Assembly (NCBI RefSeq): GCF_012027555.1
Contig: NZ_SNUQ01000002.1
Coordinates: 186,001-250,000 of the forward strand
Direction: 5' to 3'
Length of the DNA stretch: 64,000 nt
Source: Thermococcus sp. CX2
Lineage (GTDB): Archaea > Methanobacteriota_B > Thermococci > Thermococcales > Thermococcaceae
Below the pieces are notes generated by a model. It was not told where the DNA came from. It ran no database searches and was given only the letters and a program-made list of their open reading frames with translations. Every line of letters starts with the position of its first letter. Position 1 is the stretch's first letter. A program made the translations under genes and the position numbers. This document shows positions 6,038 to 55,739 of the stretch, piece by piece.

Positions 6038-6568
6038 TCAGAACTTCACCCACTCAATCTTATAGTACACAACGTCGTTGTCCTCATCAACGACCGCCAT
6101 GACCATATTCTTCCTGACACCGTGGGCCACCCTGACGCGGGCGGTTATATCGTTTGGACTGAAGCGGAGGTTCTCCGGGACGACCCAGATGAGCCACTGG
6201 GAGTGCTCGTCCATTCCGCGCCTGTAAACCCTGAAGTGGGAGCCGAACTTAAGGGCCGACTTGACGATATAGCCCCTGTCGCGCAAGTCCTTGTAGACGA
6301 GGTATTTGATGTCGAACTGGTCGTCCTTCTTCCTTCCGAGCTCGAAGAGCTCGCTTAGCGAAAGCTCGCGCTCGCCGTCGAGAACCTTTATCTTGCCCCT
6401 CTCCATCAGGTAGGCCGCCTCGATGAGAGACAGGAAGAGCTTTCCATTGACTACCTCTCCAAAGTAGCGCTTGTTGTAGAACTGGTTTATCGCCTTCTCC
6501 CTCTCGCTGAAGACCCTGTCACCGCTGAGCTTGAACTCTATCGGCTCCTTCAATTCCTCCCACCCCAC
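6038..6568 (-). CDS. endA: tRNA-intron endonuclease EndA
   Basis: 176 residues, the size of homotetramer or homodimer-type archaeal splicing endonucleases. The enzyme cuts pre-tRNA and pre-rRNA at bulge-helix-bulge motifs. The catalytic triad is visible in the C-terminal domain: Y115 (F-R-V-Y-R-R-G), H122 (D-E-H-S-Q-W) and K153 (G-V-R-K-N-M-V). Its start overlaps the end of the rimI-like gene by 19 bases, so it is probably translated from the same message. Confidence 0.95.
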   Translation of the reverse strand: MGWEELKEPIEFKLSGDRVFSEREKAINQFYNKRYFGEVVNGKLFLSLIEAAYLMERGKIKVLDGERELSLSELFELGRKKDDQFDIKYLVYKDLRDRGYIVKSALKFGSHFRVYRRGMDEHSQWLIWVVPENLRFSPNDITARVRVAHGVRKNMVMAVVDEDNDVVYYKIEWVKF

Positions 6569-7053
6569 TCGTCGGCCGGCATGAGCATGTAGTAGGCATC
6601 CTCACCGTCGGCGTAGTAGCCTATTATCCTCTTAATCCTCCTGAAGCCGAAGCGCTCGTAGAGCTTTATCGCCTTTTCGTTGCTCACGCGGACTTCAAGC
6701 CCTATGTAGCGCGCGCCCTTCTTTATTAGCCTTTCTATCGCCTCGCTCAGAAGGGCGGAACCTATGCCGTTGCCCCTATACGCTGGGTCAACCGCTATGC
6801 TCATTATGTGGCCCTCCAAATCGGGCCTGAGATAGGCCATCACGTAACCTATAACCTTTCCGTGGTACTCCGCGACGAGAAAGGTGTCGGGGTTGTTCTC
6901 GAGGAATACTAAAAAGACACCCCTCGGGTACTGCTCACGGAAGGAGACCCGCTCTATCCTCACTATGTCGGGCATGTCGAAGAGCTTGGCGGGCCTTATG
7001 ACCACCATTGATAGGGGGATCCTACCGCCCAGCTCCATTGTGGAGACGCTCAT
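6550..7053 (-). CDS. rimI: RimI/Ard1-like N-terminal acetyltransferase
   Basis: 167 residues, GNAT fold. The acetyl-CoA loop motif R-G-N-G-I-G (after V-D-P-A-Y) and the family-typical S-I-A-V-D and N-x-x-A-I-x-L-Y-E-R-x-G-F segments are clear. Archaeal members acetylate protein N-termini. The first ATG at 7053 lacks a strong ribosome site and may be leaderless; the internal ATG at 7008 is an alternative start beginning with the GNAT fold. It is upstream of endA in a two-gene unit, with promoter around 7072-7083. Confidence 0.85.
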   Translation of the reverse strand: MSVSTMELGGRIPLSMVVIRPAKLFDMPDIVRIERVSFREQYPRGVFLVFLENNPDTFLVAEYHGKVIGYVMAYLRPDLEGHIMSIAVDPAYRGNGIGSALLSEAIERLIKKGARYIGLEVRVSNEKAIKLYERFGFRRIKRIIGYYADGEDAYYMLMPADEWGGRN

Positions 7054-7071: not shown

Positions 7072-7083
7072 AAGCTTTTAAGG
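7072..7083. promoter_or_regulatory. two-way TATA element between rimI and the C/D sRNA
   Basis: CTTTTAAGG is TATA-like on both strands. Read leftwards it sits about 20-25 bases before the rimI ATG; read rightwards it sits 30-40 bases before the C/D box RNA at 7113. Archaeal divergent promoters often have this form, but only position and sequence support it here. Confidence 0.45.
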
Positions 7084-7112
7084 CTTGAGGGAACTCTAAG
7101 CGGGTGGCCACC

Positions 7113-7176
7113 CCGGCGTGATGAGCACTCTCGAACCTGACCCAGGGATGATGACCGGATTCCTGGCTGATTGCCG
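7113..7176 (+). ncRNA. C/D box guide sRNA
   Basis: All four boxes are in order with ideal spacing: C box GTGATGA (7118-7124), a 12-base guide, D' box CTGA (7137-7140), C' box ATGATGA (7148-7154), a 12-base guide, D box CTGA (7167-7170). CGGC (7114-7117) and GCCG (7173-7176) close a terminal stem. Archaeal C/D sRNAs direct 2'-O-methylation five bases upstream of D or D' with Nop5, fibrillarin and L7Ae. Predicted targets contain GUUCG (methyl on the last G) for D' and CCAGG (methyl on the last G) for D. Their rRNA or tRNA location was not determined. Confidence 0.85.
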
Positions 7177-7253: not shown

Positions 7254-9014
7254 ATGCGGATTAAAGAAGAGGCCGTTGGAATAGTGACCGGTGAAGCGAC
7301 CGTCAGCTCATTCCAGTTTTATGCTCAGCCCGATGCCGATTTGAAGTTCGGAGACTTCGTCGTTGCCAAGCTCTGTAAAGAAGCGAAGGAAAGAAACTGC
7401 CGCTGGAGCGATGATGTTGAGTGGGTCATTGGAACGATAAGGGGACTGAAGAACATAAACTGGCTCCTCAGCGAAGGGAAGAGCACCTACCACTCCCTCC
7501 AGCTGGACATAAGGGAGTACGGTGAGAGCATAGGCGAGAACGAGGCTCTGATAGTGAACGTCCGCGTGCTTGGAAGGGTCATCATAAACGGTGAGCGGGC
7601 GGAGATAGTCCCCAACCGCGTGCCGATACCGAACGGCAACACCGTCTACAGGGCCAGCTCCGAGCTCCTTAAGGCAATCTACTACGGCGGCCCTGGGTTC
7701 ATCGAGGTCGGGAACCTTCTCCTGCGCGAGGACGTTCCCATATACCTCAACGCCGACGAGCTCGTCTCGAGGCACTTCGCGGTTTTAGCGGTTACTGGTG
7801 CGGGCAAATCAAACACTGTGGCGGTTCTCATAGGGGAGATAACCAACAGGCTCCGCGGAACGGTCGTGGTTCTTGACCCCCACGGCGACTACGTAAAGCT
7901 AAGGCTTCCTGAAACGGGCAGGAAATACGTCAAGCTAATAGAAGCCAAAATAATGCCCGAGGAGATGGACAGCGAGGAGCTGGCTGACCTAATCGAGATA
8001 GCGAGCAACGCGACAATACAGAGGGAGTTTTTAGCTAAAGCCTGGGAGACCGTCAAGCACGAAAACCCAACTCTCGGCGGAAGGGAGCTAATAGAGGCCC
8101 TTATGAGCACGATAACCGAGTGGATAATGAACCGCGCTGCTTATTTCTGGGACGAGGGGAAGGAGAGCTACATAACCGAGGAACTCAAGAGCGAGAGGAT
8201 CGAAACGCTAAGGGGCGTCGTTTACAGGATAAGGCGCTTCCTGAGAAACTACGGCTCTCTACTAACGAGTGAGGATTTGATAGCCCAGATAGAGCCAGGA
8301 AAGGCCAACGTGATTGACCTCGGCCCGCTGGACGAGGGCCAGATGAAGGTCGTAGTTGGTAAACTCCTCGAGAAGATATTCGAAGCAAGGGTCGACTACG
8401 AACAGGCCAGAAAGAACATCCTCCGCCTGAGAGAAGACCTGAAAGAGAACCCCAACTCAAAGACGGCGGAGGAAATTAAGAAGTTCGAGAGCACGATGAG
8501 GGCGATAGAGAACAAGAGCCCGGCTTTGGCTGAGCCCATACTCATCATAGTGGAGGAAGCGCATATCTTCGCGCCTCATGGTGAACACAACGACGCGGTG
8601 AGGATACTGAGCAGAATAGCGAGAGAGGGCAGGAAGTTCGGGGTGGGCCTTGGGATAGTAAGCCAGAGACCCAACAAGCTCAACGAGGATGTCCTCAGCC
8701 AGACCAACACAAAGATAATCCTCCGCATCGTCAATCCCAAGGATCAGGACTACGTCCTGAGGGCGAGCGAGCAGCTGAGTTCCGATTTGCTCGGAGATAT
8801 AGCTTCCCTCGGCAAGGGTGAGGCCGTTATAGTAGGCCAAGCCATAAGCCTCCCGGCGCTCGTCAAGATACACAACTTCAAGGCCCTCGGCGGTGACTAT
8901 GGTGGGGAAGACATAGGCGTCGTAAGCCGCTGGAAAGAAAGGGCAGAGCGTGAGAGGCTCGAGAGGGAGAAAGAAAAGCTGTACGAAGAAGAGGAGATTG
9001 AGATAGACTTCTGA
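7254..9014 (+). CDS. herA: HerA DNA helicase/translocase
   Basis: 586 residues, hexameric FtsK/HerA-class ATPase that works with NurA and Mre11-Rad50 to resect DNA ends to 3' single strands. An N-terminal HAS-barrel (about 1-140) is followed by Walker A V-T-G-A-G-K-S-N at 180-187, Walker B I-I-V-E-E-A-H near 434, and an S-Q-R-P-N-K sensor/arginine region. A charged C-terminal coil follows. It is first gene of herA-mre11-rad50-nurA. Confidence 0.97.
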
Positions 9015-55661: not shown

Positions 55662-55739
55662 GGGCCGGTAGCTCAGCCTGGTACGAGCGCCGCCCTCGCA
55701 AGGCGGAGGCCGCGGGTTCAAATCCCGCCCGGTCCACCA
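55662..55739 (+). tRNA. tRNA-Ala (CGC)
   Basis: A full cloverleaf: acceptor GGGCCGG/CCGGTCC, D arm GCTC/GAGC, anticodon stem CCGCC/GGCGG with loop CTCGCAA (anticodon CGC), T arm GCGGG-TTCAAAT-CCCGC, discriminator A and encoded CCA. G-U at the third acceptor pair is the alanine identity element (third base pair). No intron. Confidence 0.97.

Follow-up and report, generated by a model that had tools for sequence, protein, structure and literature searches.

The sR names of archaeal C/D box RNAs originate from Pyrococcus, and one of these RNAs, sR5, is described by the Rfam family RF01304, which has a curated gathering cut-off of 40 bits. Double guides whose rRNA sites lie within 100 nt of each other are common in archaea, making up 262 of 489 sRNAs, or about half (PMC4644070). 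The strict rule used in that work calls for nine Watson-Crick pairs and is relaxed for double guides. RiboMeth-seq data exist for P. furiosus (PMC7758197), and no paper naming the targets of Pyrococcus sR5 was found in the open-access literature.

We describe an sR5 gene on the plus strand at positions 7113 to 7176 of the window, by which we mean the whole 64-kb stretch of Thermococcus sp. CX2 DNA that was analysed. Judged by sequence and comparison, this locus almost certainly encodes sR5, an archaeal C/D box guide RNA, with both guides fitting neighbouring sites in 23S rRNA. sR5 is an already known, ordinary archaeal gene; what is added here is an annotated guide RNA with two predicted 23S methylation sites for Thermococcus, and, in the D' guide, a clear instance of guide and target changing in concert.

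Anatomy of the sR5 gene

The full RF01304 model (1-53) matches window positions 7115-7171 with a score of 47.2 bits. The elements follow in the order GGCGTGATGA-GCACTCTCGAAC-CTGA-CCCAGGG-ATGATGA-CCGGATTCCTGG-CTGA-TTGCC: box C (GTGATGA, 7118-7124), which is intact in nearly all orthologues, a 12-nt D' guide (7125-7136), box D' (CTGA, 7137-7140), the D'-C' spacer or K-loop (CCCAGGG, 7141-7147), box C' (ATGATGA, 7148-7154), a 12-nt D guide (7155-7166) and box D (CTGA, 7167-7170), all on the plus strand. All four boxes agree exactly with the consensus (RUGAUGA for C and C', CUGA for D and D') and stand in the correct order. The 5' and 3' ends of the gene were placed from the terminal stem, in which CGGC at 7114-7117 pairs with GCCG at 7173-7176 to give four base pairs across a UU bulge. 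A strict scan for the C-D'-C'-D layout on both strands of the 64 kb returned this single site, and 100 first-order Markov windows yielded no strict layouts and 0.02 loose ones per window. The only other Rfam match in the window is a tRNA-Ala (CGC) gene at 55662-55736. The folding energy of sR5 showed no advantage over shuffled sequences (z = -0.67), as expected of a C/D RNA.

The original prediction, a C/D box sRNA with 12-base guides and perfect boxes running from 7113 to 7176 just upstream of a DNA repair operon, agrees with these observations and with the neighbouring genes, which Pfam identifies as HerA, Mre11 and Rad50. Its claim that the terminal stem closes stands for the CX2 copy and its nearest relatives, but not for most orthologues, which have 0-3 bp by the same count, so the stem is not a conserved trait.

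The CX2 gene agrees with RF01304 in the boxes, in their lengths and order, and in the greater part of the D guide. It differs in the D'-C' spacer, which is 7 nt in CX2 and 3 nt in the Rfam model (3-8 nt among relatives; CCCAGGG could form 2 bp with a 3-nt loop), and in the D' guide, which departs from the model in step with the 23S rRNA of its own genus. The orthologue in T. kodakarensis (G024:C1:2002457-2002514) has a D' guide identical to that of CX2, lies between rimI and herA as in CX2, and has the same 23S targets; its D guide begins with GCGG, whereas that of CX2 begins with CCGG. G024 was assigned to T. kodakarensis by the agreement of its 23S coordinates with those in PMC9014305. Circularity of such RNAs has been linked to a terminal stem of at least three pairs, and Table 1 of the same paper, which lists circular RNAs, does not include the T. 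kodakarensis orthologue (PMC9014305).

The CX2 genome has a fibrillarin gene (PF01269, E = 1e-101), and we take the adjoining 429-aa ORF to be Nop5 on the basis of position and sequence, not of a family search. Going by what is known of the family, L7Ae would bind the C/D and C'/D' kink motifs, and Nop5 and fibrillarin would then assemble; each guide would pair with rRNA, and fibrillarin would methylate the ribose that lies opposite the fifth base before box D or D'.

Predicted target sites in 23S rRNA

The target scan used the 23S and 16S genes of CX2 itself, located on the same contig a short way upstream of the window; the sense strand of the 23S gene was fixed by the sarcin-ricin sequence. 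In rRNA the D guide matches best at 23S 2399-2410 (UCAGGAAUCCGC), with 11 consecutive pairs at 2399-2409, 10 of them Watson-Crick, and the first base of box D could lengthen this duplex by a C-G pair with G2398. For the D' guide the best match is 23S 2366-2377 (UAUCGAGGGUGC), with 10 consecutive pairs at 2368-2377 that include one internal G-U; the two bases beside box D' are unpaired. These runs, with G-U pairs allowed, bear out the complementarity of nine or more bases to rRNA or tRNA that the original prediction implied. It had also given the target 5-mers as GUUCG and CCAGG; the rRNA reads UAUCG and UCAGG, and in both the G predicted to be methylated is unchanged.

The N-plus-five rule points to G2403 for the D guide and G2370 for the D' guide, with a Watson-Crick pair at both positions. 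A distance of 33 nt separates the two residues, both in domain V of 23S rRNA, and in an alignment to the E. coli 23S sequence they correspond to A2309 and G2276, respectively. By the usual helix numbering, we take A2309 to lie in H84, in the region of the bridge and the P-tRNA elbow, and G2276 to lie in H81, beside the P loop.

A scan of 16S rRNA gave no guide match as good as the 23S sites, and tRNA targets were rejected, the best pairings there being broken by mismatches or running on G-U pairs. An equally good single site is reached by 7% of shuffled D' guides and 5% of shuffled D guides, and none of 5000 trials placed both matches within 100 nt. Like the double guides reported earlier (PMC4644070), sR5 has two rRNA sites within 100 nt and is typical of archaea in this respect; its D' duplex falls within the rule of that study only by way of the double-guide relaxation. 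Together with the co-variation described below, the paired 23S sites argue for sR5 as a double guide for rRNA 2'-O-methylation. Judging from sequence, it most likely directs methylation at two nearby sites in its own 23S rRNA, and we infer both that the RNA is produced and that G2370 and G2403 are 2'-O-methylated.

Conservation and co-variation of guides and targets

RF01304 is present in 76 of the 94 genomes of the host family (60 above the cut-off), and its conservation spans six genera. Across the family there is hardly any variation in the core of the D guide, GGATTCCT, or in the 23S target of this guide; in the five genera for which 23S rRNA was compared the D guide fits the same site, with one pair fewer in G077. 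The D' guide fits its site in most of these five genera, and guide and target vary together between them. Thermococcus combines the target UAUCGAGGGUGC with the D' guide GCACTCTCGAAC, genus g4 combines UAUCGGGGGCGC with GCGCTTCCGATC, and genus g5 combines UAUCAGGGGCGC with GTGCCCTTGATC. In genus g5 an A replaces the G at the predicted methylated base itself and the guide has U in place of C, so that a C-G pair becomes U-A. Matched guide-target pairs score 93.5, compared to a permuted mean of 88.0 (sd 2.0), and 72 of 20,000 permutations reach the matched sum, a count that ignores the kinship of the sequences. These compensatory changes, including the one at the predicted methylated nucleotide, point to selection on D' pairing.

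The D' duplex of genus g3, which is of the Rfam type, contains one mismatch or bulge; g3 is probably Pyrococcus, to judge by how closely it fits the Rfam model.

Several individual copies depart from the common pattern. In G012 and G011 (L006 and L020) the D' guide has 13 nt (GCGCCATCCGATA/G), and full pairing with 23S rRNA needs one bulged A. In one genome of genus g2 (L091, G002:C1:538433-541489) the D' guide fails to fit the 23S site and the D guide still fits, possibly a change of D' target. Another copy between rimI and herA (L215, G063:C6:14573-16586) keeps box C', the D guide and box D, has lost box C and has a changed D' guide; it is a decaying or altered copy of sR5. Further occurrences of GGATTCCTGGCTGA in G014, G034, G044 and G070 are without C/D boxes.

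Genomic setting and alternative readings

In CX2, sR5 lies between a gene for a rimI-like GNAT acetyltransferase on the minus strand (6550-7053), from which it is divergent, and herA on the plus strand (7254-9014), which is followed by mre11 and rad50. It shares the strand of herA, whose start codon follows about 80 nt further on, and many Thermococcus genomes likewise have sR5 in the rimI-herA gap. In genus g3 neither rimI nor herA adjoins sR5, except in G012, where rimI does. In G015 and G035 rimI and herA stand side by side and the gap between them contains no sR5, and several other genomes have no sR5 upstream of rimI. A functional tie of sR5 to DNA repair was rejected on this evidence: because sR5 is placed elsewhere in g3 and rimI and herA stay together without it, the link is only positional, and the place of the gene beside herA-mre11-rad50 should not be taken as a functional one. 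In at least two complete Thermococcus genomes sR5 is missing from the rimI-herA place and the same 23S target is kept; the methylations are therefore unlikely to be essential in the genus, and sR5 appears to be dispensable in Thermococcus.

The same evidence bears on how the locus might otherwise be read. L7Ae-binding kink-turn leaders have been suggested in T. kodakarensis (PMC4247193), and the boxes could belong to such a regulatory element, bound by L7Ae in the 5' leader of herA, instead of to a free guide RNA. The shared strand, the distance of about 80 nt and the fact that a promoter of sR5's own could not be shown all suit such a leader. However, both guides fit 23S rRNA and co-vary with it, a TATA-like sequence for herA (AAACTTATA, read by eye) lies after sR5, orthologues exist with no herA downstream, and herA stays beside rimI in genomes without sR5; we regard the leader element as highly improbable. 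That the boxes are a chance pattern in intergenic DNA, giving rise to no RNA, is refuted by the comparative evidence: the Rfam match, the absence of any such layout in the Markov windows, conservation across six genera and co-variation with the target leave it a negligible probability.

A narrower alternative accepts the guide RNA and supposes that the D guide alone is productive and that the D' guide pairs without directing methylation of G2370, or is drifting. The D' duplex is the weaker of the two, with its G-U pair, its two unpaired bases by box D' and mismatches in some genera, and the D guide is far more conserved than the D' guide. The compensatory changes in the D' guide, which extend to the predicted methylated nucleotide, imply selection on its pairing, and we consider a D guide acting alone distinctly unlikely. 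The geometry of the targets also invites a suggestion that goes beyond methylation. The D' guide is a near-copy of the 5' strand of H81 (GCACTCTCGAAC in the sRNA, ACACCCTCGAAA in the rRNA) and pairs with the 3' strand of that helix, and the D guide covers the H84 loop. It is conceivable, if rather doubtful, that the sRNP would serve as a folding chaperone as well, holding H81 open and setting the folding order of domain V besides methylating it; if it did, Thermococcus species with the same 23S sequence and no sR5 would be a natural experiment. The double guide for methylation remains the reading that we prefer.

Two sequence elements precede the gene. The motif CTTTTAAGG, at about 7073-7082, is conserved upstream of sR5, and we rejected it as the sR5 promoter since it persists in genomes without sR5; for the same reason it is probably the promoter of the divergent rimI. 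Directly before sR5, at 7102-7113, there is a perfect 12-base palindrome, GGGTGGCCACCC, of which the genome holds a single exact copy. Many Thermococcus genomes have comparable palindromes ahead of sR5, and none was seen in the gaps without sR5; the element may act as a hairpin in the leader or as a signal for processing.
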